Positions 5,056 to 31,062 of a stretch of DNA of 32,083 nt are shown piece after piece. The notes beneath the pieces were generated by a model. That model was not told where the DNA came from and did no database searches. It saw only the letters and a program-made list of their open reading frames with translations. A program made the translations under genes and the position numbers. Source of the DNA: Gammaproteobacteria bacterium (GTDB lineage: Bacteria > Pseudomonadota > Gammaproteobacteria > CAIRSR01); contig CAUYTY010000198.1 of NCBI GenBank assembly GCA_963575655.1, positions 1-32,083 of the forward strand, given 5' to 3'. Position 1 is the first letter of the stretch; each line of letters opens with the position of its first letter.

Positions 5056-5227
5056 GAATTAACTGTCGGGGCAATCAGATGGGGCAATGAGGAGGCGGTA
5101 ATTTACTCTATGAGTACGGAATTGACCAGTACCGAAAGGCGAAACAAAGCTTGAAGTCTATGCACCGCACGGACACCACGATATAAGACTTTTTTATAGG
5201 TATTGCAGGGTATTTAGATAATTTGCC

Positions 5228-5870: not shown

Positions 5871-6050
5871 AATCTAGCGTTGCTCACTCCGAATCATGAA
5901 CATTTCCCTATATTTATCCTAACGTCATGTATTTGAAATAGTTTCAGACAGAACTTGGACACAAACAACCAGTTAGCACTACCTTTTTCAACCGCCCTAA
6001 CCTCGATATATACTTGCCCTCTTAAAATTATCTCTGATGGAGTTAGCCCC

Positions 6051-7307
6051 GTGTTTAGTAGGCAGATAACGATTGAGGACTTTGACCCGGAACTGTGGAA
6101 TGCAATTCAACAAGAAACTCGGCGCCAAGAGGAGCACATTGAACTCATCGCCTCGGAGAACTACGCAAGCCCGCGAGTGTTGGCGGCACAAGGTTCTCTG
6201 CTGACCAACAAGTACGCTGAAGGCTACCCAGGCAAGCGTTACTACGGTGGTTGTGAGTATGTTGATGTTGCCGAGCGGCTTGCCATCGAACGTGCCAAAC
6301 AACTTTTTGGCGCTGCCTACGCTAACGTCCAACCCCACTCTGGTTCCCAGGCCAACGCTGCCGCTTATATGGCGTTGATTAATCCGGGTGATACGATTTT
6401 AGGGATGGCCCTAGATTCTGGAGGTCATCTTACTCATGGGGCAAAACCGAATTTTTCTGGACGCATCTACCGTGCCGTTCAATACGGTGTACGTGCTGAG
6501 GATGGGCTCATTGACTATGACCAAGTAGAACGTCTTGCTAATGAGCATCGACCCAAACTCATCGTGGCGGGTTTTTCTGCCTACTCACGATGGGTAGATT
6601 GGCAGCGGTTTCGGAAAATCGCAGATGATGTAGGGGCTTACCTGTTAGTGGATATGGCCCATGTGGCAGGTCTGGTGGCAGTAGGATTGTATCCGAGCCC
6701 GGTAGGAATTGCCGATGTAACCACCACAACTACCCATAAGACTTTACGTGGTCCGCGTGGTGGCATGATTCTGGCCCGTGCTAATCCCGACCTTGAAAAA
6801 CGTCTTTCTTCTTTAGTTTTCCCCGGTACTCAGGGAGGGCCGTTGATGCATGTTATCGCAGCCAAAGCAGTTGCCCTTAAAGAGGCACTGGCCCCTGAGT
6901 TTCGAGACTATCAAGCCCAAGTCATCGCGAATGCCCGAACGATGTCTGCAACCCTCATCGAGCGTGGTTATCGGATAGTTTCAGGGGGCACCGATAACCA
7001 TTTATTTCTGTTGGATCTTATCCAACGTGGCATTACTGGCAAAGCCGCTGATGCGGCTCTAGGGGCGGCCTATATCACGGTCAATAAAAATGCCGTGCCC
7101 AATGATCCACAATCTCCCTTTGTTACCAGCGGTATCCGAATCGGCACTCCCGCGATGACGACGCGTGGTTTCGGTGAGCATGAGGCACGTATCCTTACGG
7201 GCTGGATCGCGGATATTTTGGATGATGTGAACAATACAGATCTCCAAACCCAGGTTAAGACCAAAGTTCTCGAACTCTGTATGCGCTTCCCGGTATACGA
7301 AAATTAG
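6051..7307 (+). CDS. glyA: Serine hydroxymethyltransferase
   Basis: This 418-residue PLP enzyme interconverts serine plus tetrahydrofolate with glycine plus 5,10-methylene-tetrahydrofolate in the cytoplasm. Family signatures are intact: [23 protein letters not shown], the HVAGL block, and the PLP-lysine motif [14 protein letters not shown]. The GTG at 6051 was chosen because it gives the family's normal N terminus ([15 protein letters not shown]) and has GGAG about 9 bases upstream. An in-frame start at 5955 would add 32 residues with no counterpart in the family. nrdR follows after 3 bp, a common proteobacterial order (glyA-nrdR-ribD). The region upstream is the DnaA-box cluster, so DnaA could influence transcription, but this is speculation. 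Confidence 0.97.
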
Positions 7308-12959: not shown

Positions 12960-13342
12960 ATCATCAGTGTCCCCGAGAAACCCGGCCCTTGAGGGCGGGG
13001 AGGAAAGGGGACGGTTTTTTCCGCCCCATTGGATAGCAAAATCTTTAAAGTTGCCGGTCTTTCCCGGCTGTCAGCCCGTAAGGGCCTAGTGACGCACACC
13101 TTACGGTGTGGCTCCCCTCGCCAATGTTGCAACGCAGCTTCGATTCTTGCGAACCTTGCAGCAGACCGTTTCGTGCGTACCCGTCGCGTGTCTGCTTCTG
13201 CTGCTTTCAGAGCTTGGAGTTGAGGAAGCGCCCCAAGGTGAGTCTTGTACTTCGTTGCAACGTAGTCCGATTTCTCGGACTAAGGCTGGTCAATCTCGGG
13301 CTTGCTTTCACAAGCCACGGGCTTTAGCCCGGGGTGATTGAC
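12960..13342 (-). mobile_element. 383-bp hairpin-rich, non-autonomous IS200/IS605-like element
   Basis: Bases 12960-13013 are the exact reverse complement of 1-54, and 13289-13342 are the reverse complement of 32030-32083 with one mismatch. The segment therefore has both ends of the element seen at the window edges, in opposite orientation, and is a short, apparently complete copy. It carries no transposase. Perfect small stems occur at 13053-13068 (GCCGG/CCGGC), 13074-13085 (GCCC/GGGC), 13095-13110 (CACACC/GGTGTG), 13264-13281 (AGTCCG/CGGACT) and 13299-13316 (GGCTTG/CAAGCC), plus the end hairpin at 13315-13334. Short open frames inside it appear to be chance. Confidence 0.65.
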
Positions 13343-13368
13343 ATATACCGAAACTAAAAGCTGAATCC

Positions 13369-14829
13369 ATGTCGTTGTTGACCCTTCTACTGGTTCTTCC
13401 CCTCCTGGGGGCGATGCTGATTGCCCTGGTCCCCCCTCAACGGGAGCGGTGGATCAGAAACCTAGCTCTGACGGTTTCGGTCGCCACCATGATACTGGCG
13501 GTCTGGATCGCCCACCTTTTCGACCCACTCCTGGGTGGTTTGCAGTTCTTCGTCAAGGTTCCTTGGCAGCTTCGCCTGGGTAGCTATTTCTCCTTGGGAG
13601 TAGATGGGCTTTCTTTGCCTTTAGTACTTCTTGCCGTCGTGCTCAATGTGGTTGCTCTGCTTGCCTCGGTTCAGGACCGCATTAAGGGTTACACCATCGC
13701 CATGTTGCTCCTAGAGTCCGCCTTATTGGGGGTGTTCATGGCCCAGGATTGGTCCCTGTTCTACGTCTTCTGGGAGTTGACCCTGTTGCCCCTGTTTATC
13801 CTTATCAATCGTTGGGGGGGGAAGCGACGAGGGCAGGCAGCCCTCAATTTTATGCTCTATACCATGGGCGGATCGGTGTTCATGCTCATTGGCCTATTGA
13901 TTGCCTTTGACGCTGCTGGAGTCCACACCTTCGCCATGGCGGAAATGAGCGTGGGTCTGCAAAATGCCTCTCCCAGAACTCAGCTTCTGATCTTCTTAGG
14001 TTTCTTTATTGGTTTCGGCGTCAAGATGCCAATCTTTCCCCTCCACGGTTGGCTACCACTTGCCCATGTGGAGGCCCCCAGCTCGGTAAGTATCCTGCTC
14101 TCTGGTGTGCTTTTGAAGATGGGTTCCTATGGACTCATCCGTGCTGGGGCGATGTTGCCCCACGCCATGGTGTCGATGCAGGGCGTGCTTGGTACCCTGG
14201 CTCTAATCAACTTGCTCTATGGTGGCCTCCTCGCTTGGCGGCAGAGTGACCTCAAGGCGATGATTGCCTACTCCTCGATCAGTCACATGGGCGTGGTGCT
14301 TCTGGGTCTCGCCGCCCTCAACACTGCTGGTGTTACCGGTGCCGTGGTACAGATGGTGGCTCACGGTTTAGCGGCTGGGGCGCTTTTTCTCATCGTTGGC
14401 CTACTTTACCAGCGCACCCACACCCGTGATGCGAGCCACTATGGTGGCTTGGTCCATGTCACCCCGCGCTTCGCTCTGTTTACCACCATGGCCTTTCTGG
14501 GAGCGGTGGGTATTCCTGGTACCGCTGGTTTTGTGGCGGAACTTCACGCCATCGTCGGTAGTTTCCAGCGCTGGGGTGGCGTGGCGGTGGTACTTAGCTT
14601 GGGTATGTTGATTAGCGCTGCCTATGGGGTGCGTACCGTGGGCTACCTTTTCAGCGGTTCCGTTGCCCCAGGTATGAACAAGATCTCCGACCTCAACCGC
14701 AGTGAGTTGGTGGCGGTGGGTATGCTAACCACGGGCATGGTGGGATTGGGTCTGGCGCCCCTCCCTTTGCTTTCTATGATCGAGACTTCGGTGACCCGCT
14801 TTAACTCGCTATTTGCGGGATACTTGTGA
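13369..14829 (+). CDS. NuoM/MrpD-like proton-translocating subunit of a DAB-type complex
   Basis: A 486-residue, 13-14 helix member of the proton-conducting antiporter family (NuoL/M/N, MrpA/D). The key charged residues are present: Glu in YVFWELTLLPLF (near residue 139), Lys in GFGVKMPIFPLHGWLP (near 212) and Lys in LLSGVLLKMGSYGLIR (near 249). This suggests a working ion path. It is the first gene of the dab operon and ends by overlapping dabA (TGATG). No good ribosome-binding site precedes the ATG, and only 26 bp separate it from the mobile element upstream. No other complex I genes (peripheral arm, NuoH) are nearby, so it belongs to the DabA complex rather than a full complex I. Confidence 0.88.
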   Translation: MSLLTLLLVLPLLGAMLIALVPPQRERWIRNLALTVSVATMILAVWIAHLFDPLLGGLQFFVKVPWQLRLGSYFSLGVDGLSLPLVLLAVVLNVVALLASVQDRIKGYTIAMLLLESALLGVFMAQDWSLFYVFWELTLLPLFILINRWGGKRRGQAALNFMLYTMGGSVFMLIGLLIAFDAAGVHTFAMAEMSVGLQNASPRTQLLIFLGFFIGFGVKMPIFPLHGWLPLAHVEAPSSVSILLSGVLLKMGSYGLIRAGAMLPHAMVSMQGVLGTLALINLLYGGLLAWRQSDLKAMIAYSSISHMGVVLLGLAALNTAGVTGAVVQMVAHGLAAGALFLIVGLLYQRTHTRDASHYGGLVHVTPRFALFTTMAFLGAVGIPGTAGFVAELHAIVGSFQRWGGVAVVLSLGMLISAAYGVRTVGYLFSGSVAPGMNKISDLNRSELVAVGMLTTGMVGLGLAPLPLLSMIETSVTRFNSLFAGYL

Positions 14830-17800
14830 TGGCAGCATATTCCTCACGCCGGGAGAGGTTGATCCACGCTGTCCACCACCTGGAGCACATCCTTCCAGAT
14901 CAGGCCCCACTCCAGGATTTCGTGCATCACAATACCCTGCACGGCTATCAACACCTACCTTTTCCCGATGCCTTGGTTGCGGCATACAAGGTCACCGGTA
15001 TTCTTGGTTATTTGTCCCCGGAGAGTTTCCGCGCCCTGTTAGCCCAGGAGCGTATCACCATGTCCGACCTGGAGGCGGTGCTCCAGGCCACTCCTTGGCT
15101 CAATGCCGAAGAGTCCCTAGGACCGTGTCGGCGGTTGGATGTTTACCGAACGGCTCTACTCCAGGATCTGGACCCGATTCCCCCCTCTCGGTTGGCTTGG
15201 GAGCTAGAAAGGGTAACGGAGCATGGATTGTGGCAAGGGTGCCTTGATGTTTTACACCTCCCCCATGACCCTAATCACATCGAAGAAATCCTGCACCTGA
15301 GCGAGGAGCGAGCCCAAGCCCTCCTTGATCGTTTACCTGGGGAGAAAGCCGACGGTACCTCCCGTAGTGCTGCTGAACTGCATCGAGAATCAGAACACCT
15401 ACTTCATCTCCTGATAGACCAGGTGGGGGTTACCCTTACCGTGAGGGGGCTGCTAATGGCCCTAACCGGTCAAGACATCCTGGTTGAGGTGCGTCCCTAT
15501 CTGGTGCGGCAACTGGCGGCCTTCCTGGATCAGGGCCTCTCTCCTTGGCCCTTACCCGGGCGGGAAAAAGGGTTCTATGCGGCCTGGCGGCAGGTGGCTT
15601 TGGCCGACCCCAACTATCGGTTGGAAGAACTCCCTGACTGGTACGAGACCATTGAACAGCTTCCCGAAGAGGCTGTGGACGCAGTGGAACAACTGCTCTC
15701 CCAGTTGGGATTGCCAGAGAAGCGCTGGGAGGGGTATTTAAAGCGTCTGGCCTTGGAATTACCCGGCTGGTCCGGCATGGTCCAGTGGCGACGCAACCGC
15801 CCCGGTTATCTGGGTTTTACCTCGCCCACGACGGTGGACTACCTAGCGGTGCGCCTGGTGCTCGAACAGCTCACCGCCGTGCGTCTGTGTCGAGCGCACT
15901 GGCGATTGGGACCCCGTCTGGACCTGCTCTCCTGGCACTTCCGTCGCGCACGCGCCGAGCTGGTGATGCGTTGGTACCTATTCAACGATGAGATCCCCGA
16001 ATACCTGGCCAGTCGCGTACAAATGTTCCTGCGTCGGGCGAAAGAAAACCCGGTGAGTAACGAGGAATGGCAGCGATTGGCCCATCTGTATCTGACTTGG
16101 CGGTTAAGTCAGGGTGAGCAGGGGAAGTTCAGCGTTTGTCGTCATGCCTGGCCGTTATTTCTGCTGACGCGCAGCCTGGGACTGACGGAAGACAAACTCC
16201 GGCAGGGTGGGTATCCCTTGGCGAAGGTGCTACTGGATACCCTCTCGCGCCTGACCCCGGAACGGGTAGGTTACCTCTGGCTTCAGGCCTACGAACGTCC
16301 CTATCGGGAGGCAATCCTCGCCGGGGTGGCGGCCAATCACGGGCGAGGACGTTGGGCCTTTCGCAAGGAATGTCCGGTGGCGCAGGTGGTCTTCTGCATG
16401 GATGATCGAGAAGAGGGCTTCCGTCGTCATCTGGAGGAGCGCAACCCTTCTGTGGAAACTCTTGGGGCTGCAGGATTTTTCGGCGTCCCCATGAATTGGC
16501 AAGGGCTAGATGATGCAGGGTTCACCGCCTTGTGTCCGGTGGTGGTGACCCCGGTAAACATAGTACGAGAACAGCCTCAAGGGAACGCTGCCGATCTATC
16601 TCGGCGTCATAGTCACCGGCGGGGGTTACGCTTACGTTGGCGAGATCGGTTTCTGCGTCTTTCTCACCGAGGCGTGGTAACTCCGGCACTACTCTCCCTG
16701 TTGATGGCGTCATGGGCGTTGATAGGCTTGGTCGGAAGGCTTATGGCCCCTCTGGGGATGGGGCGGTTACTCTCCGCCCTTCGGGTACGTTTCGACTTGA
16801 CCGTGCCCAGTACCTTGAATTTCATCGCCCCGGCGGAAGATCGTACCCCTAGCCCGGAACAACCCCGTGAAGGTTTTACCGATACCGAACAGGCCACCCG
16901 TGTGGAGGGAATGCTACGTACTATGGGGTTGACCTATGGCTTCGCCCCCCTGGTGGTAATTATGGGGCACGGCTCTAGCAGTCAGAACAATCCCCACCTG
17001 TCGGCCTACGATTGCGGTGCCTGTAGTGGTCGTCATGGTGGTCCCAATGCTCGTCTCTTTGCTGCCATGGCCAACCGTCCAATAGTGCGCGACATATTGG
17101 CCACTCGAGGCATCACCATCCCCGATACGACTTGGTTTTTAGGGACAGAGCGCGACACTGGCAGTGAGGAGATCACCTGGTACGACCTGGACCAACTCCC
17201 CACCGGGTTACGGGAGGGGTTGGCGGTGCTACGCCACGACCTGGACGCGACCCGGGCACTCTCTGCCCATGAACGCTGCCGCCGTCTTGCTTCCGCCCCT
17301 CGCCACCCAACCCCGATCCAGGCGTTGGCCCATGTGGCGGGTCGAACGGTGGACTTTAGTCAGGCCAGACCCGAACTGGGCCACGTTACCAACGCGGTGG
17401 CCCTGATTGGCCGCCGTTCGGTCACCCAAGGGGTATTTTTCGACCGCCGCATGTTTCTCATCTCCTACGACCCGACCCAAGACCCGGAGGGAAAGATCGT
17501 GGAGGGCATCCTCCTTGCCGCTGGACCAGTGGGCGCGGGGATCAGTCTGGAATACTATTTTTCTACTGTGAATAATGACCGCTTTGGCTGTGGCACTAAG
17601 GTGGTACACAACGTTACCGGCTTTTTTGGCGTTATGGAGGGGACGAGTTCCGATCTGCGTACTGGCCTGCCTCGGCAGATGGTCGAGATTCACGAGGCCA
17701 TGCGCCTATTGGTGATCGTGGAGCAGAAACCCGGGGTACTTACCGCCATTTGCCAGCGTCAGCGCATCGTGGCGGAACTGGTACTTAATGCCTGGATCCA

Positions 17801-17990
17801 ACTGGCGGCCCTGGATCCCGAAAACGGTGACATTGCCGTTTTCAATCCTGAAATGGGCCGGTGGGAGTCTTGGCAAGGTAGCAACACCCCCCTGCCCCGT
17901 GCGGAGAGTTCTCCTGCTTGGTATGGCGGTTGCGACGGTCCACTCGCGCCTGCCCTTATTCGTCAACCTGAGGAACGTACCCATGGTTGA
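14829..17990 (+). CDS. dabA: DabA, DUF2309 carbonic-anhydrase-like subunit for inorganic carbon uptake
   Basis: This 1053-residue protein belongs to the DUF2309/UPF0753 family. DabA is a zinc protein that, with a membrane partner, is thought to hydrate CO2 vectorially using the ion gradient. The N terminus has FVHHNTLHGYQH (near residue 31). The beta-carbonic-anhydrase-like site is visible: C-x-D in VVFCMDDREE (near 521-530), His in VVIMGHGSSSQNNP (near 714) and Cys in YDCGACSGRHGG (near 727-738). There is no signal peptide; it should sit at the cytoplasmic face of the membrane. The ATG at 14829 overlaps the previous stop, and an adjacent GTG at 14826 is possible. Many characterised DabA proteins are nearer 800 residues and this is a longer member. 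Confidence 0.95.
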   Translation: MAAYSSRRERLIHAVHHLEHILPDQAPLQDFVHHNTLHGYQHLPFPDALVAAYKVTGILGYLSPESFRALLAQERITMSDLEAVLQATPWLNAEESLGPCRRLDVYRTALLQDLDPIPPSRLAWELERVTEHGLWQGCLDVLHLPHDPNHIEEILHLSEERAQALLDRLPGEKADGTSRSAAELHRESEHLLHLLIDQVGVTLTVRGLLMALTGQDILVEVRPYLVRQLAAFLDQGLSPWPLPGREKGFYAAWRQVALADPNYRLEELPDWYETIEQLPEEAVDAVEQLLSQLGLPEKRWEGYLKRLALELPGWSGMVQWRRNRPGYLGFTSPTTVDYLAVRLVLEQLTAVRLCRAHWRLGPRLDLLSWHFRRARAELVMRWYLFNDEIPEYLASRVQMFLRRAKENPVSNEEWQRLAHLYLTWRLSQGEQGKFSVCRHAWPLFLLTRSLGLTEDKLRQGGYPLAKVLLDTLSRLTPERVGYLWLQAYERPYREAILAGVAANHGRGRWAFRKECPVAQVVFCMDDREEGFRRHLEERNPSVETLGAAGFFGVPMNWQGLDDAGFTALCPVVVTPVNIVREQPQGNAADLSRRHSHRRGLRLRWRDRFLRLSHRGVVTPALLSLLMASWALIGLVGRLMAPLGMGRLLSALRVRFDLTVPSTLNFIAPAEDRTPSPEQPREGFTDTEQATRVEGMLRTMGLTYGFAPLVVIMGHGSSSQNNPHLSAYDCGACSGRHGGPNARLFAAMANRPIVRDILATRGITIPDTTWFLGTERDTGSEEITWYDLDQLPTGLREGLAVLRHDLDATRALSAHERCRRLASAPRHPTPIQALAHVAGRTVDFSQARPELGHVTNAVALIGRRSVTQGVFFDRRMFLISYDPTQDPEGKIVEGILLAAGPVGAGISLEYYFSTVNNDRFGCGTKVVHNVTGFFGVMEGTSSDLRTGLPRQMVEIHEAMRLLVIVEQKPGVLTAICQRQRIVAELVLNAWIQLAALDPENGDIAVFNPEMGRWESWQGSNTPLPRAESSPAWYGGCDGPLAPALIRQPEERTHG

Positions 17991-19548
17991 GTCTCTCGTG
18001 GTCTGGATCCCCGGTTTACCCGCCCTAGTCGCTGCCAGCATTGTCGTGGGGTGGTTCACCGGTCGAAATCGTGAGGAGGCGGGAGAAAGGGCTACTGCCC
18101 TGTTGGCTACGGGGGCGACGGTGCTTTCCTTGCTGTTGCTCCTGGTGCTGGATGCTGCTGCCCTGATGATGGAAAACGCCCCGGGCCAGGTGTCGTATCG
18201 CCCCTGGCTGGAAAGTGGAGACTTCCAGGTAATGTTTAGCTTTACCCTGGACCGGTTGAGTTTGGCCATGGCAACTCTGGTGGCAACGATTGCCGTCCTC
18301 ACCCTGCGTTTTTCGGTCAACTACATGCATCGAGAGGGGGGATTTCAGCGTTTTTTCGCCGTGCTCTGCCTATTCGTGGCCGCCATGTTGCTCATTGTGT
18401 TGGCTGGCAACGGGGTAATGATGTTCGTGGGTTGGGAGGTGGCGGGGCTTTCCTCCTACCTCCTCATCGGCTATGCCTATGACCGTTCTATCGCTACCGG
18501 CAATGCCGTTCGTGCCTTGGTTACCAATCGATTTGGTGATGCGGGTTTTATCGTGGGTATTGTCCTTACCCACCACTGGTTGCTGGGTCTGGAATGGCCG
18601 CAGATCGTTGCCCATGTTCAGCAAGTCGATAATCTTCATGTAGGATTGATCGCTGGTGGATTTATGCTGGCGGCCTTGGCCAAGTCTGGCCAATTCCCTT
18701 TTGTCGGATGGTTGCCCCGCGCCCTGGAAGGTCCCACCCCTTCAAGCGCCATTTTCTATGGGTCTCTCATGGTCCACGCTGGGGTCTATCTGCTGCTCCG
18801 ATTGGAGCCCCTGTTGGTGGAGGTGCCGGTGATAATGGGCCTCCTCGTCTGTCTAGGGGGAGTGACCACTTTCTACGGCTTTTTCTCCGGTTTGGCTCAG
18901 ACCGATGTTAAAAGTGCCCTGCTCTTTTCTACTCAGAGTCAGGTGGGGATGATGTTTCTAGCCTGTGGTATGGGGTGGTTCGAGTTTGCTTTCTGGCACA
19001 TGCTAGCCCACGCCGCTTGGCGGGCTTACCTCTTCTTGAACGCCCCGGCTTACATGCATTTGGTGCATGGTCCAGTGCGGCACGTACCCTCCTGGTTGGC
19101 GAATAACCTCTTTCTGTATGCAGCGGCGACGCGACGCTTTTGGGTGGACACCTTAGAGGAACAACTCATCATCCGTCCTACTCAGGCCCTGTCCCAGGAC
19201 GTACAGACCTTTGACGATCTGGTGATTGACCGCATGGTGGGTCACATCCACGGTGGTCGTAATCCCTCTTCTCTGGAGGAGTGGGAGGCGCAACGTCAGA
19301 AGTTTCACGAAAATGAAGGCATTGATATTGATTTCGCCTGGGGCCGTGGGATCCTGGGCAATATGTTGGAACGGATTGCCTCCCAGTTGCATCGCTTTGA
19401 GGAGCGCCTGTTATTGGGGAGCGGTGGGGATGGTCTCTTGCAGAGTTTGCGACGCCTGGGTCACATTCTGGAATTAACGGATAATTTGTTGGAACAGCCG
19501 CGTTATTTGTTGCTTCTCGTGGTTCTGACCTTCGTCGTAATCCTCTAA
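17983..19548 (+). CDS. dabB: NuoL/DabB-like ion-translocating subunit
   Basis: A 521-residue NuoL-like membrane protein, the type that pairs with DabA as DabB. Conserved residues include Glu in MMFVGWEVAGLSSYLLIGY (near 151), Lys in LAALAKSGQFPFVGWLP (near 231) and the following GPTPSSAIFYGSLMVHAGVYL. After about residue 360 it leaves the antiporter core for a hydrophilic, charged stretch (about 390-500). It then closes with one hydrophobic helix, recalling the lateral arm and final anchor of NuoL. The ATG at 17983 overlaps the dabA stop by eight bases and has GAGG about 9 bases upstream. A longer in-frame opening from 17788 lies inside dabA and was rejected. A 250-bp relic of a close paralog lies at 22851-23104. 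Confidence 0.88.
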   Translation: MVESLVVWIPGLPALVAASIVVGWFTGRNREEAGERATALLATGATVLSLLLLLVLDAAALMMENAPGQVSYRPWLESGDFQVMFSFTLDRLSLAMATLVATIAVLTLRFSVNYMHREGGFQRFFAVLCLFVAAMLLIVLAGNGVMMFVGWEVAGLSSYLLIGYAYDRSIATGNAVRALVTNRFGDAGFIVGIVLTHHWLLGLEWPQIVAHVQQVDNLHVGLIAGGFMLAALAKSGQFPFVGWLPRALEGPTPSSAIFYGSLMVHAGVYLLLRLEPLLVEVPVIMGLLVCLGGVTTFYGFFSGLAQTDVKSALLFSTQSQVGMMFLACGMGWFEFAFWHMLAHAAWRAYLFLNAPAYMHLVHGPVRHVPSWLANNLFLYAAATRRFWVDTLEEQLIIRPTQALSQDVQTFDDLVIDRMVGHIHGGRNPSSLEEWEAQRQKFHENEGIDIDFAWGRGILGNMLERIASQLHRFEERLLLGSGGDGLLQSLRRLGHILELTDNLLEQPRYLLLLVVLTFVVIL

Positions 19549-19559
19549 GTAAAACCGCC

Positions 19560-21086
19560 ATGATCATTTCCGAGATCCCCTGGTCGAGCCAAATAGGTTT
19601 TCCTATTCTGGGAGTAATGCAATTCCTTCCTGTCTTGGGGGCGATTCTGCTCGTTGTCACTCGTCGGAGCCAACTGGCGGTATTCATGGCCTTAGTTCTA
19701 GGTCTCGTCGAGCTAGGGTTGGCCCTAACTCTTCGTCACACCTTCGTCCCTAACCAACCTGGTCTTCAGTTGGTGGAACGGCTGCCCATCATCGGTCTCC
19801 TGAACTACCATTCTGGAGTGGATGGTATTGGTGTGCTGTTCATGCTGCTCACGGCCTTTCTCTCGTTTATGGTGGTGGTGTACGGCATTTTTATTCGTCG
19901 TTTTGAGTTTCTTCCGCGCTATCTTGCCGTGGTGCTGGCCATGGAGGCCCTGATCATGGGCCAGTTTGCGACCGTGGACCTGCTCTGGTTCACCCTGCTT
20001 ACCCTGACGCAAACAGTATTTTCTGGGCAGCTACTCAGGGTGTGGGCCACTTCTTCAGAGGAGGGTCCGGCGGTGGCGCGTTTCTACCAATTCATGGGCG
20101 TGTCTCTGCTCTTGCTCATCACTGCGACCCTGCTTCTAGGTTGGCAACATGCGATGGCCAGCGGTGGTTTCTGGTGTTCTGACCTTCCGAGTCTCTCTGC
20201 CATTGAACTGCCGCCAGCTTTGCAATCGGTGATCTTCTACCTGTTGCTTTATGGTTTGGCCATTCGTATCCCTATGTTTCCCCTTCACGCTTGGTTGCCC
20301 CTTGTAGCGGAACATGGCACGGTGGCTTCGGCCATGGTGCTGCTATTGGGGTTGAAGACCGGGGTGTATGGCTTGATTCGCTTCGTCTTTCCGTTGCTGC
20401 CATACGCGGTGGAGCAATGGCACGGTTATGTCATTGCCATTGCCGCCACTGGTATTTTTTATACCGCTCTCCTTGCTCTCATGCAGCAGAACCTGCGTCG
20501 ACTTGTGGCCTACGCCGTGGTGAGTCATACCAGCATCTTGGTGATTGGTCTGTTCAGTCTTCAGGCCCCCGCTTTTCAGGGAAGTATCATCCTGGCGGCG
20601 AATTTTGGTTTGGCGATCTCCACCCTGCTTTTCACTCTAGGCATGGTGTACATGCGTACCAATACCATGCAGTTATCCAAACTGGGGGGAATATTTGACT
20701 TCCTACCCGGGATTGCTATTGCTTTTCTGGTGGCCAGTTTGGCTATCGCTGGTATGCCGGGTACCCCTGGTTTTGACGCCGCCCATCTCATACTAGATGC
20801 CGCGATTCACACCTTTGGCGCCCTGGTGACCATTACTGCCGCTTTGGGTAATGTCGCGGCGGTAAGCTGTCTGCTGTGGGCCTTTCAGCATACTTTTCTC
20901 GCCCACCCGTCCCCCAAAGAGGTGATTACCTTGGCACGGGCTAGTGCCGTGGAGACGGCCTTCGTCGTGGTGATGATTGTGGTGCAGCTAGTGGCGGGGT
21001 TTCACTCGGAACCGTGGTTAGGGTTAGTAGATCGGGCCAGTCGAGAGTTGGCCACGCCTTACCAGAGCGAAAGGAAACCAGAATGA
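19560..21086 (+). CDS. NuoM/N-like subunit lacking canonical Glu and Lys
   Basis: This 508-residue antiporter-like membrane protein has about 14 helices. The motif positions are recognisable but altered. Where pumping subunits have FWELTL, it reads WFTLLTLTQTVF (near 143-154), with no Glu. Where they have GVKxPxFPLHxWLP, it reads LAIRIPMFPLHAWLP (near 237-251), with Arg for Lys. The next Lys is kept (LLGLKTGVYGLIRF, near 264-277). It may be a structural or modified ion channel subunit rather than a standard pump. It starts 11 bp after the NuoL-like gene and overlaps the next gene by ATGA, so it is translationally coupled and unlikely to be decayed: the reading frame is intact throughout. Confidence 0.82.
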   Translation: MIISEIPWSSQIGFPILGVMQFLPVLGAILLVVTRRSQLAVFMALVLGLVELGLALTLRHTFVPNQPGLQLVERLPIIGLLNYHSGVDGIGVLFMLLTAFLSFMVVVYGIFIRRFEFLPRYLAVVLAMEALIMGQFATVDLLWFTLLTLTQTVFSGQLLRVWATSSEEGPAVARFYQFMGVSLLLLITATLLLGWQHAMASGGFWCSDLPSLSAIELPPALQSVIFYLLLYGLAIRIPMFPLHAWLPLVAEHGTVASAMVLLLGLKTGVYGLIRFVFPLLPYAVEQWHGYVIAIAATGIFYTALLALMQQNLRRLVAYAVVSHTSILVIGLFSLQAPAFQGSIILAANFGLAISTLLFTLGMVYMRTNTMQLSKLGGIFDFLPGIAIAFLVASLAIAGMPGTPGFDAAHLILDAAIHTFGALVTITAALGNVAAVSCLLWAFQHTFLAHPSPKEVITLARASAVETAFVVVMIVVQLVAGFHSEPWLGLVDRASRELATPYQSERKPE

Positions 21087-22546
21087 TGGATATGCCCTAT
21101 CTGAGTCTGTTGATCGCGTTGCCGCTAGTGGGGGCGGTGTTGCTGGGGGTGGTTCCAGTGAGAGGTCGAATTCGGGAGGTAGCCCTGCTTGTGACTCTGG
21201 TGGAATTGGCCTTGGCCCTGGCCACCCTGATGGCGGTGGATCCTAATTCCCACGCCTTTCAATTACAGGAAGAACTCCCCTGGATCCCAGACCTGAACAT
21301 CCATTACCGAGTAGGGGTGGATGGCCTCTCCGCGCTTTTTCTGCCATTTACCGCCCTGCTCTTTGCTGGGGTGATCGTTGCCTCTCCGGTGATTCAAATC
21401 TTGCCTCGGCTTCACTTCTCTATGCTTTTGTTCTTAGAGGGGGCCACCATAGGGGTGTTTACCGCCTTGGACACGATGCTCTTCTTTCTGTTTTGGGAGC
21501 TGACCTTGGCACCGGTCTACTTTCTAGTGAGCTTGTGGGGTATCGGTCCTCGCCGTCGGGAGGCAGCGACTAAGTACACACTGCTGATGTTAGTCGGGGG
21601 TGTACCCCTTTTATTCGGTTTCCTGATGGCTGCCTTGGCTCATGTCGAGCCGCTGTTCGATCTACCCTCCCTCCTTGCGCATCCTTTGCCTCCCTCTCTC
21701 CAGACCATGGTTTTTCTGCTCTTACTGGTGGGATTTGGGGTAAAGACCCCGGTTTTGCCTTTTCATACCTGGCTACCCAGCGTGGCGATGCAAGGTCCAA
21801 CTGGGGTGGTGGCAGTGATGACCGGTCTCAAACTGGGGGCTTACGGGCTGCTGCGCTTTGCCATTCCCATGGCCCCGGAGGCGGCTCGTAGCTTTCACTG
21901 GTTGCTGGCGGGATTGGGGGTGACGGGTATTGTCTATGGCGTTTTGGTTGCCCTAGCGCAGACCAATCTTCGCCGTTTGCTCGCTTACTCCAGCATCAGT
22001 CATGTAGGTCTAGTGGTGCTGGGGCTTGCTTCGTTCTCACTTCAGGGGGTGCAGGGAGCAGTATTCCAGCTTCTCAATTTCACCCTGGTGGCGGGTGGGC
22101 TCTTTTGTTTGGCGGGATTTCTTCAGCATCGTTTCGGCTCCACCGACCTTATCCACCTAGGGGGGTTGGCGCGTCCTATGCCAAAGGCCGCCATTTTTTT
22201 CCTACTGCTGGGATTAGGTGGTCTAGGGATGCCACTGACCTCGGGTTTTCCTGCCGAGTTACTTCTTTTGCAGGGTGCCCTGTCCTCTCACATGGGGGCC
22301 GGTCTGGCCGCTCTAGGTGGAGGCATCATCAGTGCGGCCTATTTCTTGGGTTTCTACCGTCAAGCCTTTCTTGGTCCGCTTCGTCACCCCTACCTAAGCC
22401 GAGGACCAGACTTACTACCTCGGGAGTTTCTGGTGCTGGGGGTGCTGGGTATTTTGTTGTTGGTCGGTGGATTCTTTCCGAGATTAATCCTTGGTTTTAC
22501 TCGAATGGCCGCTGAGGGATGGATCCAAAGATTAACAACACCGTAA
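21083..22546 (+). CDS. NuoM-like proton-translocating subunit, last gene of the dab operon
   Basis: A 487-residue antiporter-like membrane protein with all key residues: Glu in LFFLFWELTLAPVYF (near 140), Lys in GFGVKTPVLPFHTWLP (near 222) and Lys in GLKLGAYGLLRF (near 258). The ATG at 21083 overlaps the previous stop (ATGA) and follows AAAGGA at a good distance; the 23 extra residues of a longer frame from 21014 lie inside the upstream gene and were rejected. It closes a gapless five-gene set. No terminator with a T-run follows; palindromic repeats begin within 25 bp. Confidence 0.87.
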   Translation: MMDMPYLSLLIALPLVGAVLLGVVPVRGRIREVALLVTLVELALALATLMAVDPNSHAFQLQEELPWIPDLNIHYRVGVDGLSALFLPFTALLFAGVIVASPVIQILPRLHFSMLLFLEGATIGVFTALDTMLFFLFWELTLAPVYFLVSLWGIGPRRREAATKYTLLMLVGGVPLLFGFLMAALAHVEPLFDLPSLLAHPLPPSLQTMVFLLLLVGFGVKTPVLPFHTWLPSVAMQGPTGVVAVMTGLKLGAYGLLRFAIPMAPEAARSFHWLLAGLGVTGIVYGVLVALAQTNLRRLLAYSSISHVGLVVLGLASFSLQGVQGAVFQLLNFTLVAGGLFCLAGFLQHRFGSTDLIHLGGLARPMPKAAIFFLLLGLGGLGMPLTSGFPAELLLLQGALSSHMGAGLAALGGGIISAAYFLGFYRQAFLGPLRHPYLSRGPDLLPREFLVLGVLGILLLVGGFFPRLILGFTRMAAEGWIQRLTTP

Positions 22547-22850: not shown

Positions 22851-23104
22851 TGCTGGAATGGCCGCAAGTCGCCGCCCACGTCCAGCAGACCGACAATCTT
22901 CATGTGGGATTGATCGCTGGTGGATTTATGTTGGCGGCCTTGGCCAAGTTTGGTCAATTCCCCTTTGTTGGATGGCTGCCTCGCGCCTTGGAAGGTCCCA
23001 CCCCGTCAAGCGCCATTTTCTATGGGTCTCTCATGGTCCACGCTGGGGTCTATCTGCTGCTCCGATTGGAGCCCCTGCTGATGGAGGCGCCGGTGATAAT
23101 GGGG
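22851..23104 (+). pseudogene. Fragment of a second NuoL/DabB-like gene
   Basis: This segment matches 18589-18840 of the NuoL-like dab gene at roughly 90% of bases. It encodes the TM7-TM8 region (LEWPQVAAHVQQTDNLHVGL through LEPLLMEAPVIMG) in an open frame. Many differences in the first half are synonymous, while a run of about 70 bases near the end is identical. That suggests a paralog that once evolved under selection, perhaps with gene conversion, rather than a fresh copy. It has no start, ends abruptly in unrelated sequence at about 23105, and its left edge abuts a MITE. It cannot be functional alone. Confidence 0.85.
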
Positions 23105-23403: not shown

Positions 23404-23946
23404 TTATTTAGGGGGCTGCCCTCCTTTTTCGAATATATGGCGAGGTCTACCACGAAACGGAAATCCCACTTTGCGAGCCAGCACATCTTCAATTTCCGTT
23501 TTGAACTTCTCATTGCTCAACGGTGTTCCCGTTTGCAAGGCGCATCTTAGCTGCACTAATTCATCAGCATCCGAACAGTCATGGAGAAAGCTACGATAAA
23601 CAGATTGGCAATCCATGAGAGAATGTCCTAAAGAAAAATATTCCCCGTGTGGTGTCAAGACAGAATTACTCACCCCCAGCGCGTTAGCCGCGTAGCTAGA
23701 CCAACGATACTTGGTCGGGTGATCCACCATTCCTGCTCTGACTGGGTTCAATTCGATATAACGCATGCAGGACAGTAAATAGATCTGCGATTGAATGATG
23801 TTGCTCTTGTATCTTCCCTCCCACAAAGTGCCATGTCGCTGATAGACCTTGTTCACATACCTCACATAATCCCGCCCCACACTTTGGAACAAGCGCCCAA
23901 CGGAATTGGAAGATTCTGGTGTCAATAACAAATGTACATGGTTGGT
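23404..23946 (-). pseudogene. REP-associated tyrosine transposase (RAYT, Y1_Tnp), 5'-truncated
   Basis: The frame begins, without a start codon, at TNHVHLLLTPE, the HUH metal motif of Y1 transposases. It continues through the tyrosine-helix region (SVGRDYVRYVNKVYQRHGTLWEGRYKS) and the RAYT signature CMRYIELNPVRAGMV to a full C terminus. The ~40-50 residues that normally precede HVH are missing: the reading frame meets a TGA two codons upstream of TNHVH, where IS30-like terminal sequence starts (23947). It is therefore inactivated by that insertion. A TTG could restart translation just after the HUH motif but would leave an inactive enzyme. Confidence 0.85.
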
Positions 23947-24052
23947 GCGGATTCAAACTCGAAGTGCAACTCTTGAATTAACAGTTAGTTGAGTGATCGA
24001 GGTACTCTAATTTCTGTATCAGACGAATCCTCGCAGCGTCAAGGGACCGTGG

Positions 24053-24575
24053 GTGGTGTTTCAGACCTGGATATTGCGGTAGCCATTCTTCAAACATGGG
24101 TATCGGGTGACTTTCTGCCATAATTTTGAAGTATTATCGTGCGCAACGAGAACTTTACTTGGAAAGAACCTCCAATGGCTAACAGAGCTGTTTTGTGTCC
24201 ATGCTGTAAATGTGATCATGTCGTTAAACGCGGCAAGACGGAACTTGGAAAACAACGCTATCTCTGCCTGAAGCCGGAATGTGGTAGGAAGACATTCATT
24301 TTAGATTATACCTACCAGGGGTATTTGCCAGAAGTCAAGGAGCAGATCATCGACATGGCAATGAACGGCAGCGGGATCCGTGATACTGCGCGGGTATTGA
24401 GAATTAGTCCAGGGACGGTTATTAGCGAAATAAAAAAACAAGAACCCTATATTGAGGCAGTCAATCAGTCACTACTGAAAAGACTGAATGCAGATGACAT
24501 TGTTGTTGATATTCAAAAGGTTGAAGGTGCTGAAGTGGATGAAATGTGGAGCTATAGCAAAGCCACCATAAAATG
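24053..24575 (+). mobile_element. IS1-family element, 3' part lost
   Basis: The left end is placed near 24053 (GGTGGTGTTTCAGACCTG), which resembles IS1-type termini beginning GGTG; this boundary is approximate. The element carries an IS1 transposase gene that breaks at about 24573, where IS630-like sequence begins at a TA. The IS1 right end was not found before 25090. Confidence 0.5.
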
Positions 24576-24576
24576 A
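24175..24576 (+). pseudogene. IS1-family transposase, C-terminally truncated
   Basis: From the ATG at 24175 the protein reads like IS1 InsA: MANRAVLCPCCKCDHVVKRG with a zinc-finger Cys pattern (CPCC, then CLKPEC), then IIDMAMNGSGIRDTARVLRI, a helix-turn-helix. It runs without a frameshift into the start of the InsB-like catalytic part (EGAEVDEMWSY), where the first catalytic Asp lies. It then enters foreign sequence and stops after 133 residues. The rest of the DDE domain is missing, so it is inactive. GGAAAG upstream supports this start over an in-frame one at 24139. Confidence 0.85.
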
Positions 24577-24731
24577 TTACGCATAATTTGCGAAGACTTC
24601 CTCGGTAGTACGGCGTTCTCTTTTGTCAATCGCCTTTAATTGCGCCCACTTATGTTCGATGGGATTGAAATCTGGTGAATAAGGGGGTAAATATTCCAGA
24701 ATATGGCCCGCATTTTTGATGGCTTGTTGAA
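24577..24731 (-). pseudogene. IS630-family transposase, C-terminal fragment
   Basis: The minus-strand frame contains AIKNAGHILEYLPPYSPDFN followed by PIEHKWAQLKAIDKRERR, the hallmark end of IS630 DDE transposases (YSPDxNPIE, with the last catalytic Glu), and stops at 24577. The upstream ~80% of the gene is absent; the 5' break coincides with the 101-bp element starting at 24732. The right junction (TATAGCAAAGCC near 24563) begins with TA inside the IS1 gene, as expected for IS630 insertion at TA. Confidence 0.8.
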
Positions 24732-24832
24732 TAGACCTTATCGGAAACCCCCTACCTAGCTCTGCCGGACAACGCAACCTCATGATTTATATTGACTGTG
24801 GTGGGTGATGAGGAGGTTTCCGATAAGGTCTA
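24732..24832. mobile_element. 101-bp MITE with 18-bp perfect terminal inverted repeats
   Basis: TAGACCTTATCGGAAACC (24732-24749) and its exact reverse complement (24815-24832) bound a 101-bp element whose ends begin and finish with TA. This fits a Tc1/IS630-type MITE inserted at TA. It has no coding capacity. It truncates the IS630 transposase fragment. Confidence 0.7.
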
Positions 24833-24989
24833 TTATCGGAAACCTCACCCCCCGCCCCCCTCTCCTTAACAGGAGAGGGGGAGAATTATTCCGTTGTTAT
24901 GCTTAACTCCTGGACGGAACAGGCAAAAAATCTCCCCCTCTCCTGTTAAGGAGAGGGGGGCGGGGGGTGAGGTTTTGGGTTTCCGATAA
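24833..24989. repeat. 157-bp element with 44-bp perfect inverted repeat inside MITE-type ends
   Basis: The outer ends TTATCGGAAACC (24833-24844) and GGTTTCCGATAA (24978-24989) share the terminal motif of the 101-bp MITE. Inside, 24841-24884 and 24931-24974 are perfect 44-bp reverse complements, and each arm itself contains CTCTCC/GGAGAG around TTAACA. A 46-nt loop separates them. As RNA it would form an extremely stable stem. No coding sequence was seen. Confidence 0.75.
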
Positions 24990-25089
24990 TGTCTAATGTT
25001 TCAGGATTTCTCATTGCCCGTAAGAAAATGGCTCATTTGAGCTAGCAGGCCGCCCCTCTTCTAACAACGCATTTCATTGGAGGAACAAA

Positions 25090-25488
25090 ATGAATTACAC
25101 GCATATCACTCATGACACGATGATTTCTTTACTCAAGCCTTTTACCGATCATGTTCATACTATCACGACCGACAATGGCAAGGAGTTTTCCCAACATCAA
25201 CAGATCGCCAAAGAACTGAATGCAGGGTTCTACTTCGCACACCCATATTCCTCCTGGGAGCGTGGCGCTAACGAGAATATGAATGGACTGATCCACCAGT
25301 TTTTTTCAAAGAAGATGAGTCTTAAATTCATCCCTGAAAAATTCATCAAGAGGGCAAAGGATCTCCTAAATCACCAGCCACGAAAATGCCCCGGATTAAA
25401 AACTCTTTTTGAAGGGTTCAATAATGAGTTAAAATTGGGCAACCCATCCGTTGCACTTCAAGATTGCAATCCGCCGTTCAGCATTTAA
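25090..25488 (+). pseudogene. IS30-family transposase, C-terminal half
   Basis: This fragment carries the end of an IS30 DDE domain: the second Asp in TTDNGKEF and the Glu in SWERGANENMNGLIHQFF, then RAKDLLNHQPRKCPGLKT. The N-terminal DNA-binding part and the first Asp are missing. An ATG at 25090 with GGAGG upstream would translate it, but catalysis is impossible. The normal stop, expected inside the right terminal repeat after VALQ, is bypassed by sequence change, so the frame runs 14 bases past the element end. Confidence 0.85.
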
Positions 25489-25611: not shown

Positions 25612-28600
25612 TCAATTTCGTGCCGCCGCCTGCCGATGCAGATCCTGAAGGCGATGTACTGTAACGTTATCCAAATGTCCGAGGGCCAACGCTGTTGCCA
25701 GCGCCCCTGCCATGGTGGTGGTGTAACTCACTTTACGTTGTAAGGCGGTACGTCGAATGGTGTAGGAATCGGCGATGGCCTTGCGGCCCTCAGTGGTGTT
25801 GACCACGAAACTCACCTGGTCGTTCTTGAGTAGATCGACGACGTCGGGCCGTCCCTCTCCAACCTTGGCCACCACCTGACACGGTATTCCTGCCGCTGTT
25901 AACGTCGCGGCGGTGCCACGAGTGGCGAGGATCTCGAACCCTTGGGCCAGGAAGGCGCGCCCAACTTCCTTGAGATAGGGACGATCGGCGGTGCGTACGC
26001 TGATAAAGACCCGTCCCCCACGCGGCAGGGCCATTCCGGCGCCGAGTTGTGCCTTGGCAAAGGCCTCTTCGAAACTCGCCCCTACACCCATCACCTCACC
26101 AGTAGATTTCATCTCTGGCCCCAGGATGGGGTCTACGCCAGGAAACTTGATGAACGGGAAGACCGCCTCCTTCACTGAAAAATAGGGCGGCACCACCTCC
26201 TCGGTTACTCCCTGTTCTGCCAAAGTCCGACCAACCATGCAGCGCGCCGCCACCTTGGCAAACGGGATGCCAGTTGCCTTGGATACAAAGGGTACGGTCC
26301 GCGAGGCCCGTGGATTGACCTCCAAAACGTAGATGTTGTCCCTTTGAACGGCAAACTGGGTATTCATCAGGCCCACCACCCCCAAAGCACGCGCCATCTG
26401 CTCTACCTGGGTACGCAATGTCGCCTGAATGGCGGGGGAGAGACTGTAAGGCGGTAGTGAACACGCCGAGTCGCCCGAGTGAACACCGGCTTGCTCGATG
26501 TGCTCCATGATGCCCGCGATGACCACTTGTTGACCGTCGCAGATGGCATCGATATCCACCTCGATGGCGTCATCCAGAAAACGGTCGAGCAACACCGGCG
26601 AATCGTTGGATACCCGCACCGCCTCGCGCATGTAACGGGCGAGGTCCTCCTCGTCGTGGACGATCTCCATCGCCCGGCCACCTAACACGTAGGAAGGGCG
26701 CACCACCAAGGGGTAGCCGATGTGTTCCGCCAAACGCACCGCCTCTTGGGGGTCGCGAGCGGTGCGGTTGGGCGGTTGGCGCAGGCCAAGCTGGTCCACC
26801 ATCTTTTGGAAACGTTCGCGGTCTTCGGCCAAGTCGATGGAGTCAGGGGTGGTGCCGATGATCGGGGCACCAGCCGCTTCCAATGACCGGGCGAGTTTGA
26901 GCGGGGTCTGGCCACCGTACTGGACGATTACCCCCTTGGGCTTCTCTAAGTGGATGACTTCTAGGACATCTTCGAGAGTCAGTGGCTCGAAATAGAGTCG
27001 GTCAGAGGTGTCGTAGTCGGTCGAGACCGTTTCCGGGTTGCAGTTGACCATGATGGTCTCGTAACCATCCTCACCGAGGGCCAATGCCGCATGGACGCAG
27101 CAATAATCAAACTCAATACCCTGTCCAACGCGGTTGGGTCCGCCGCCCAATACCATCACCTTCTCGCGCTCAAACGATGGAACTGATTCGCACTCCTCCT
27201 CATAGGTGGAATACATATAGGCGGTGGTGGCTCGAAACTCCGCAGCGCAGGAATCCACCCGCTTGTAGACCGGACGCACGCCGAGGGTGTGGCGTAACGC
27301 CCGAATCTCGCCCTCGTGGGTACCCAAAAGATGGGCCAGACGACGGTCGGAGAAACCGCGACGCTTGAGGCCGAATAAGCCCTCTCGATTCAGGGCTGCG
27401 CTCCCCCCCAAGCGGACTTGGTCTTCGATCTGGACCAATTCTTCGATCTGGGCCAGGAACCAGGGGTCAATGTGACAGTAGCCGTGGACCTCGGTAAGCG
27501 TCATTCCCACGCGGAAGGCATCCGCCACGTACCACAGACGGCTTGCCCCCGGTACCCGCAATTCCTGACGCAGCCGACGTAGCGCCGTCTGGTCGCGGCC
27601 TTCCAGGTGCTCATTTAGACCGTCGGTACCAATCTCCAAACCACGCAGCGCCTTTTGTAGCGATTCCTGGAAGGTACGACCAATCGCCATAATCTCACCC
27701 ACCGATTTCATTTGGGTGGTGAGATGGGCATCAGCCTGAGGAAATTTTTCAAAGGTGAAACGCGGCACCTTGGTTACGACGTAATCAATAGTGGGTTCAA
27801 AAGAGGCCGGCGTTGCCCCGCCGGTAATCTCATTACGTAATTCGTTGAGGGTGTAACCCACCGCAAGTTTGGCAGCGACTTTGGCAATTGGGAAACCAGT
27901 GGCCTTGGAGGCCAGCGCCGAGGAGCGTGATACGCGCGGATTCATCTCGATGATGACCATGCGCCCATCGGCAGGATTGATGGCGAATTGAACATTCGAC
28001 CCACCAGTATCCACCCCAATCTCGCGAAGCACCGCAATCGAGGCGTTGCGCATGATTTGATATTCTTTATCGGTCAGCGTCTGGGCGGGGGCAACCGTAA
28101 TCGAATCACCGGTGTGGATCCCCATCGCATCCACATTCTCGATTGAACAGATAATGATGCAATTGTCGTGGCGATCGCGCACCACCTCCATCTCGAATTC
28201 CTTCCAACCAATCACCGATTCCTCTAGCAGCAATTCGTGGGATGGGGAGAGATCCAGACCACGCCGGCAGATCTCCTCCAACTCTTCGCGGTTATAAGCA
28301 ATACCCCCCCCCCGAGCCGCCCATCGTAAACGAGGGGCGGATAATAGTCGGATAGCCGATAGTGGGCTGAACCTGATGAACTTCCTCCAAACTATGGGCG
28401 ATAACCGAGCGCGGCATATTGAGCCCGATGCGACGCATTGCCTGACGGAACAAGTCACGGTCTTCAGCCTTGGCAATTGCCTCGCGCGAGGCACCGATCA
28501 GCTCCACATTAAAACGCTCTAGCACCCCCTCGCGACCTAGGTCCATCGCGGTATTGAGTGCGGTCTGGCCCCCCATGGTGGGCAATAAAGCGTCTGGGCG

Positions 28601-28843
28601 TTCCTGCTCAATAATCCGCGCCACCGTTTGCCAGGTGATCGGTTCGATATAGGTGGCGTCCGCCATTTCCGGATCAGTCATGATGGTCGCCGGGTTGGAA
28701 TTCACCAGGACTACCCGGTAACCTTCCTCGCGCAACGCCTTGCACGCCTGTGCGCCAGAGTAGTCGAATTCGCAGGCCTGGCCGATAATAATCGGACCAG
28801 CGCCGATGATGAGGATGGTATGAAGGTCGGTACGTTTTGGCAT
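25612..28843 (-). CDS. carB: Carbamoyl-phosphate synthase large subunit, with a one-base frameshift
   Basis: This enzyme makes carbamoyl phosphate from bicarbonate, ATP and ammonia delivered by CarA, for pyrimidine and arginine synthesis. The ~1076-residue product is full length, with two ATP-grasp halves ([17 protein letters not shown] in the first, [15 protein letters not shown] in the second), an oligomerisation region between them and a C-terminal allosteric domain. The frame breaks at a run of ten G (C on the plus strand, 28304-28313). Ten give GGSGGG-YCL-stop; nine would restore [14 protein letters not shown]. All else is intact, so a sequencing or assembly error in the homopolymer, or slippage, is more likely than loss of an essential gene. 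Confidence 0.93.
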
Positions 28844-29043
28844 GGGTATCTGTTGGGGTATGTCCTGCCCATCACATCAAATCGATCTTTATGACTGAGC
28901 GAGGACGGAGTGACAATTTTAAGAAGGCGCAAGGGTTAAATGAGATGTAATCGTTCATTTTCTTCCGTTGAAGCAACCGCTCACTCCCCCTCCCAACGGG
29001 AGGGGGTGAATGATTACCCCAATAGTTACGATCGGCGCATCTC
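28844..29043. other. Spacer between the Uma2-family gene and carB
   Basis: These 200 bp contain a GC-rich hairpin (CCCCCTCCC/GGGAGGGGG, 28986-29006, 3-nt loop) similar in style to the CTCCCC/GGGGAG palindromes at 24841-24974. No T-run follows on the minus strand. It may be an intergenic repeat rather than a terminator. No clear carB ribosome-binding site was seen. Confidence 0.45.
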
Positions 29044-29616
29044 TTATATTCCTGTTCGTTGATAGAGTTCGTCCAAACCTAACGATATCTTTGCCGTTCC
29101 GCATTCCAGCAAGACGATATCGTTTTCACCTAGAGTCTGTTCCAACCAATCGGTTCCGTCACGATTACGCAAACGGACATAGCATCGCTCAGCGTTAATT
29201 AGCAGATAATAACGGAGCACGGGAATATCTCGGTAATGAAACCACTTTTCGCGCTCGTCGATATTGACGGTGGAAGGAGACAGTACCTCAGCGAGAAGAC
29301 AAGGGGCAACCCGATAAAGCGGGTGATCGTCATCTTCTCGGAGGTCTGGACAAGTCAGCATGACATCCGGGTAATAGTAGGCGCGCTGGATATCGATACG
29401 CACCTTCATATCGGCCATGAAGACTTCACAAGAGGTATTACGAGTGGCTGCGTCCAGTTTGACGGTGAGGTTGATGGAAATGCGATTACGTCGAGCACCG
29501 ACCCCGGCCATGGCGTAGACCTCGCCAGCGACGAATTCATGCTTGCTTTGGGCGTTCTCTTCGCTAACAAGGTAATCTGCCTCCGTGAGATAGAGCCTCT
29601 TTAGTGCGTTACCCAC
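29044..29616 (-). CDS. Uma2-family (DUF820) putative nuclease
   Basis: A 190-residue protein of the Uma2/DUF820 family, which has a PD-(D/E)XK-like restriction-endonuclease fold. Visible family blocks are the start LYLTEADYLVSEE, KHEFVAGEVYAMAG (near 24-37), YYPDVMLTC (near 80-88), APCLLAEVLSPST (near 103-115) and the following D-E-R-E-K-W helix. Function is not established; the family is abundant in cyanobacteria and large sulfur bacteria. The GTG start at 29616 has GGGA upstream and lies 22 bp after the carA stop, so it is inserted within the carA-carB unit on the same strand. Confidence 0.85.
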   Translation of the reverse strand: MGNALKRLYLTEADYLVSEENAQSKHEFVAGEVYAMAGVGARRNRISINLTVKLDAATRNTSCEVFMADMKVRIDIQRAYYYPDVMLTCPDLREDDDHPLYRVAPCLLAEVLSPSTVNIDEREKWFHYRDIPVLRYYLLINAERCYVRLRNRDGTDWLEQTLGENDIVLLECGTAKISLGLDELYQRTGI

Positions 29617-29638
29617 GTAAGTTTTCCCATTCGCTTCA

Positions 29639-30775: not shown

Positions 30776-31062
30776 ATTCACCTCCGAGGGCCAAACATAC
30801 AAAGCGGGAGGACCCGCTATGGAGTACTCCCGCCAACTAAAAAATCGGATTTCTTCTACGAGAAATAGGCGCGGAACCGTAGAGGCTCTTCCTCGTTTCG
30901 TATACCAATTTCACCTGTTTTCCGATATAAACGGAGATAAAATCTATATTAGGATACTGGTTCCGACCGCGAGCCGGAATTCTATCGACCTACCTTCCCG
31001 CTGTCCAACCGCCGTGTGGTTGGGCGGTCCCTTCCCATGTAAGAACTAGCGAATTAAACCCT

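Follow-up and report, generated by a model that had tools for sequence, protein, structure and literature searches.

Five packed genes around dabA in a gammaproteobacterial contig: a candidate DAB-type complex with an enlarged complex-I-like membrane arm

The DAB systems described so far are small. DAB2 has two subunits and DAB1 three, and single-subunit forms exist too (PMC13144422). The contig studied here, 32,083 nucleotides from a gammaproteobacterium (the window), places DabA among four antiporter-type membrane subunits. An earlier note on this DNA had proposed that the five genes act together, with four ion-conducting modules serving one CO2-hydrating head. Do the five genes form a unit, and are all four modules channels?

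The interval 13369-22546 is filled by five tightly packed genes on the same strand, in the order M1-DabA-L-N4-M5:

M1: 13369..14829, plus strand, 486 aa, NuoM-type antiporter-like subunit (PF00361, 234 bits; TIGR01972, 470 bits)
DabA: 14826 (GTG) or 14829 (ATG)..17990, plus strand, about 1054 aa (PF10070, 793 bits, full profile)
L: 17983..19548, plus strand, 521 aa, NuoL/DabB-type subunit (PF00361 and PF00662)
N4: 19560..21086, plus strand, 508 aa, NuoM-derived subunit (PF00361; TIGR01972, 266 bits)
M5: 21083..22546, plus strand, 487 aa, NuoM-type subunit (PF00361; TIGR01972, 429 bits)

M1 and DabA overlap in a GTGA, and DabA and L overlap by 8 bp. An 11-bp gap separates L from N4, and N4 and M5 share an ATGA. 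Reading frames, Pfam and NCBIfam matches, and junctions agree, so the packed five-gene cluster is real.

The NuoM model TIGR01972 (NDH_I_M) has a cut-off of 264. M1 and M5 lie well inside it; N4 barely reaches it, and scores only 73 bits with the NuoN model. L is the NuoL-type PF00361 protein adjoining DabA, as in DAB systems; its nearest NCBIfam model is NuoL, with a score under the NuoL cut-off. For all four subunits, the best curated matches are NuoM or NuoL, far above Mrp. The cluster thus contains antiporter subunits of the NuoL/M/N type (TIGR01972 and NuoL models). Its five genes include no redox arm and no NuoA/H/J/K between 13369 and 22546. Likewise, no ORFs for the small subunits of an MrpA-G operon are present in the cluster. 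In the tree, M1 is a clade of its own beside complex I NuoM. N4 groups with M5 inside the NuoM clade, as a diverged relative of M5, and L falls near NuoL instead of ordinary DabB, with moderate support. The earlier labels for M1, DabA, L and M5 are therefore kept. N4, described before as NuoM/N-like, is NuoM-derived and not NuoN-like.

We consider it probable that the products of the five genes assemble into a single DAB-type membrane complex whose arm is enlarged and resembles that of complex I, and in which the proton-motive force (PMF) would drive CO2 hydration through a lateral relay. The hydration reaction would take place in DabA, at a buried zinc site like that of beta carbonic anhydrases. 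L would act as the DabB, the membrane subunit that binds DabA directly and receives its finger hairpin. M1, M5 and N4 would attach to L in the way that NuoM and NuoN attach to NuoL in complex I. Protons would flow inward down the PMF through M1 and M5, perhaps N4. This flow, relayed laterally to L, would make hydration one-way and yield cytoplasmic bicarbonate. We infer the physical assembly, the PMF as driver, the direction, the lateral relay and the use of more than one proton per CO2. The PMF coupling is proposed because of the published work on DAB2, which is described as PMF-driven (PMC13144422).

The key residues of M1 are E136 (TM5), K219 (TM7), K250 (TM8) and E391 (TM12), kept in 62-63 of 63 homologues. 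M5 also has the canonical TM5 Glu, TM7 Lys, TM8 Lys and TM12 Glu (58-60 of 60 homologues). In contrast, the charges of N4 are rewired. Its TM7 Lys is changed to Arg236 in all 59 homologues, and the TM8 Lys is kept. A gap-free alignment places the TM5 site at residue 149, with Glu or Gln displaced by two, at 151. The same alignment ruled out F144 as the TM5 site, so the Glu is displaced and not lost. The TM12 Glu site is Ala408, mostly Ala or Val in the homologues, between the invariant Asp406 and His409.

These substitutions bear on one alternative. The five proteins could form one assembly with only one or two conducting subunits; N4, perhaps with others, would be a spacer derived by duplication, and the protons per CO2 would be as in DAB2. 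The missing acidic residue at the TM12 site, the displaced TM5 Glu and the relationship of N4 to M5 fit this picture. Nevertheless, the kept TM8 Lys and the invariance of D406, H409 and R236 indicate that N4 is constrained and not decaying. Moreover, M1 and M5 are fully canonical. We regard the alternative as rather unlikely.

L and DabA also show changes. The AlphaFold model of L (pLDDT 85.4) has 11 core TM helices followed by a helical C-terminal region, and aligns with NuoL chains at Z 39-51. It presents no equivalent of NuoL TM12-14; therefore, L is without a second half-channel of its own. L retains Glu152 (TM5), Arg183, Asp186 and Lys234 in 70 of 70 sequences. The two- and three-gene DabBs examined in the same class have I, A, G, T, H or Y at the TM5 site, and Glu in none. 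DabB2 has 15 TM helices and Ile151 at this position, and a Glu placed there halved the growth yield with DAB2 (PMC13144422). Because the charges of N4 are rewired and L is without TM12-14, four channels is too simple a description; only M1 and M5 are canonical. The Rubrobacter protein encoded in place of N4 retains the TM7 Lys and the TM12 Glu, and the Rubrobacter L continues with extra helices beyond TM11. For this reason, N4 and L look like later modifications.

The catalytic site of DabA is preserved. Aligned to DabA2 (9rd0_A), it consists of C524, D526, R528, H715 and C730. All five zinc and relay residues of DAB2 (C351, D353, R355, H524 and C539; PMC13144422) are thus kept. The C/D/H/C set is retained in 74 of 74 homologues, and R528 is invariant in a 60-row alignment. 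The AlphaFold model (pLDDT 85.7) keeps the long finger hairpin, with helices 586-614 and 618-640. A Foldseek search with this model against a library to April 2026 gave no significant match. DAB2 was not among the matches either, so this null result says nothing on the fold of DabA.

The finger itself differs. Glu444 in the DAB2 finger is essential (PMC13144422). The corresponding site is Glu or Asp in 16 of 16 two- and three-gene DabAs and Glu in none of the 74 five-gene DabAs, with an uncertain alignment in which 15 of the 74 may carry Asp. An alternative alignment puts Pro at the site in 66 of 74, a column that shifts when DabA2 and the two- and three-gene DabAs are added. In every version of the alignment, a conserved finger Glu is absent from the five-gene DabAs. 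Its loss could mean that the five-gene DabA is not coupled as DAB2 is, or not proton-driven at all. Considered together, the two changes are reciprocal: L keeps the TM5 Glu and DabA is without the finger Glu. This swap suggests lateral coupling like that of complex I, and not the DAB2 proton path.

A more specific proposal is that the chain of NuoM-type subunits drives hydration, with obligatory coupling to several protons through M1, M5 and N4. It would be a second solution beside that of DAB2. The obligatory multi-proton coupling is suggested because L gave up its second half-channel and DabA its finger glutamate. We hold this proposal tentatively, as possible but short of probable.

Is the five-gene set found elsewhere? 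Scanning named genomes for DabA yielded 76 loci; because such a sample is biased to close relatives of the query, the frequency was measured separately. The exact order M1-DabA-L-N4-M5 occurs in 41 of them, and most others are cut by contig ends; the compared genomes are mostly draft or metagenome assemblies. Flanking of dabA by several Proton_antipo_M genes, which the earlier note had suggested looking for, is thus confirmed, and an identical order in dozens of genomes excludes a chance arrangement. The 41 loci belong to gamma- and betaproteobacteria, Magnetococcales and Nitrospirota. Among their sources are Methylococcales, Crenothrix, Accumulibacter, Azonexaceae/Dechloromonas, Magnetococcales and one Nitrospirota MAG. 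Rubrobacter has an equivalent layout with two M5-type genes. Among 185 genomes of the same class, DabA is present in 46 and N4 in 8 (E below 1e-120, a threshold that misses a diverged five-gene version in G054). The five-gene type is therefore found in roughly one sixth of the DabA genomes of the class. All eight genomes with N4 also have DabA (hypergeometric P 8.9e-6).

Some loci vary in composition. Three Thiothrix loci (L071, L073 and L027) have a second DabA-L pair inside the cluster, M1-DabA-L-DabA-L-N4-M5, and the zinc residues are present in both DabA copies. In a Thiothrix MAG, DabA and the next L are separated by a large NTPase carrying HEAT-like repeats (L070, 13197-17216), a possible defence-type insertion. 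M5 seems split into two overlapping ORFs at 5212-6730 of locus L115 (G037), possibly by a frameshift. DabA adjoins SulP-type transporters in Alphaproteobacteria and Planctomycetes (L094, L095 and L096), and the SulP beside DabA in Rhodopirellula has a C-terminal P-II domain. Loci L093 and L096 have DabA-L and one diverged NuoM-like gene; the alphaproteobacterial L has 778 aa.

Broken clusters are informative about the unit. In the family of the window's genome, G002 has M1-DabA; its L lies about 36 kb from this pair, and a different contig carries N4-M5. In G003, the set is spread over four contigs: M1, DabA, L and N4-M5. The Methylococcales G056-G058 carry M1-DabA apart from L-N4-M5, and G059 has M1, DabA and L-N4-M5 separately. 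All five genes are retained in these six dispersed sets. N4 and DabA lie on separate contigs in G085. Conversely, G001, from the window's genus, is without DabA and without all four partner genes. In two methanotrophs (G056 and G058), the PF00361 genes number exactly four, each from the five-gene set, and no complex I antiporter genes were found. In these genomes, the additional subunits therefore cannot be part of complex I. Among 44 complete sets, the nearest relative of the window at all five genes is G002. G003, of the same genus as G002, is outside the five nearest at every gene. Each set thus looks inherited as a block. Mirror-tree correlations of 0.87-0.94 were set aside as evidence of co-evolution, since shared species history yields them too. 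Synteny, co-retention after dispersal, joint absence and presence without complex I antiporter genes support the five genes as one unit, as the earlier note had proposed; its view of the modules as channels is only partly right.

These data also weigh on the idea that DabA and L are an ordinary DAB, and that M1, N4 and M5 are a separate antiporter or extra complex I subunits, neighbours by chance. The three are NuoM homologues, and methanotroph clusters can split. However, the split pairs M1 with DabA and keeps L beside N4-M5, contrary to this idea. N4 occurs only together with DabA, G056 and G058 have no further PF00361 genes, and the window's genome has its own NuoL/M/N elsewhere, on contig C111. 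An L without TM12-14 and a DabA without finger Glu do not make an ordinary DAB. We find this explanation improbable.

We also judge it quite improbable that the one complex is coupled to Na+ instead of H+, or is an Mrp-like Na+/H+ antiporter with a CO2-hydrating head. The homologue MpsAB has been argued to use sodium (PMC13144422), and the Mrp subunits are homologous; both points would favour it. Nevertheless, the small Mrp subunits are missing from the cluster, the curated matches are with NuoM and NuoL, and DAB2 activity has no sodium requirement (PMC13144422).

Finally, the one complex could work as a pump in which the hydration of CO2, or a different reaction of DabA, powers the export of ions. 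This was proposed in 2017, before DAB was characterised (text of PMC5700660), and the TM5 Glu/TM7 Lys pairs considered to gate pumping in complex I are present in M1, M5 and L. We reject this direction on energetics as highly improbable: at pH 7.5 and equal concentrations of CO2 and bicarbonate, hydration releases about 6.5 kJ/mol by our calculation, less than the 14.5 kJ/mol of one H+ at 150 mV. Moreover, DAB2 is described as driven by the PMF (PMC13144422).

Returning to the single PMF-driven complex, the same calculation limits the reasons for its large arm. The 14.5 kJ/mol of one H+ per CO2 corresponds to a ratio of about 300-fold, so extra channels need a reason other than the stronger accumulation suggested in the earlier note. 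Four H+ are far beyond any accumulation need. If several protons are used, likelier benefits are operation at low PMF, speed, and strict irreversibility or gating.

The genome of the window has a single DabA and a form II RuBisCO. Family searches detected neither a beta carbonic anhydrase of PF00484 nor a BMC shell protein. The carbonic anhydrase search covered PF00484 and the alpha family, and gave one alpha enzyme with an apparent signal peptide. DAB may thus be the main source of cytoplasmic bicarbonate in the host.

Directly upstream of M1, positions 12980-13345 have GC-rich inverted repeats that resemble a mobile-element end. Just past the cluster, 22853-23103 is a decayed partial duplication of the L gene (251 bp, 91% identical to 18589-18839) within a larger mosaic ORF. 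Several transposase-like ORFs and repeats follow at 23404-25488, before carB/carA (25612-30802, minus strand). The carB/carA product uses bicarbonate; its nearness to the cluster may be chance.

How energy is transferred along the antiporter-like chain of complex I is a long-standing question. If the proposed complex is true, it would be a relative with such a chain, no redox chemistry and a simple hydration reaction, in which the relay could be studied in isolation. It would also define a distinct type of CO2 uptake in methanotrophs, Thiothrix and polyphosphate-accumulating bacteria. The automatic annotation of three subunits as NADH dehydrogenase would then need correcting.

The general idea that more membrane subunits mean more ions is not new. 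For the DabA family, Klimchuk et al. 2017 (COGNAT) proposed that the ion count per turnover depends on how many membrane subunits there are, and reported that NuoM and SulP often neighbour DabA where it lies upstream of nuoL (PMC5700660). The earlier note had left it undecided whether the composition was already described. In the searchable text, that is, apart from subscription papers and supplements, this 2017 work was the only one found to touch on it. The searchable text gave no description of the defined five-gene set, of its residue signature, of its co-retention or of its modular splitting. More precisely, the COG3002/COG1009 "clade C" operons resemble our cluster in having DabA upstream of NuoL and neighbouring NuoM, and SulP neighbours and the ion-number idea are also given for them; the text of PMC5700660, apart from its supplementary figure S1, gives no five-gene composition, residues, co-retention or function.

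Compared with known systems, the cluster is like DAB2 of Halothiobacillus neapolitanus, DAB1/DAC and MpsAB in the DabA zinc site, the NuoL-type partner and the DabA finger hairpin. Unlike DAB and DAC, which have one to three subunits, it has five. The TM5 Glu is replaced in the 15-TM DabB2, which has Ile, and DabA2 has Glu444; here, L has 11 core TM helices with the TM5 Glu, and the finger Glu is absent. The membrane arm of complex I, including the Nitrospira 2M complex I with its extra NuoM copies, has similar NuoL- and NuoM-type chains. In contrast to it, the cluster has no redox arm and no NuoA/H/J/K, L is without TM12-14, and the head would be CO2-hydrating. Cyanobacterial NDH-1MS (CupA/CupB) also has a CO2-hydrating subunit on a complex-I-type membrane arm. 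It is driven by electron flow, and its hydrating subunit is of an unrelated kind, whereas the cluster described here combines DabA with four antiporter-type subunits and no electron-transfer subunits.
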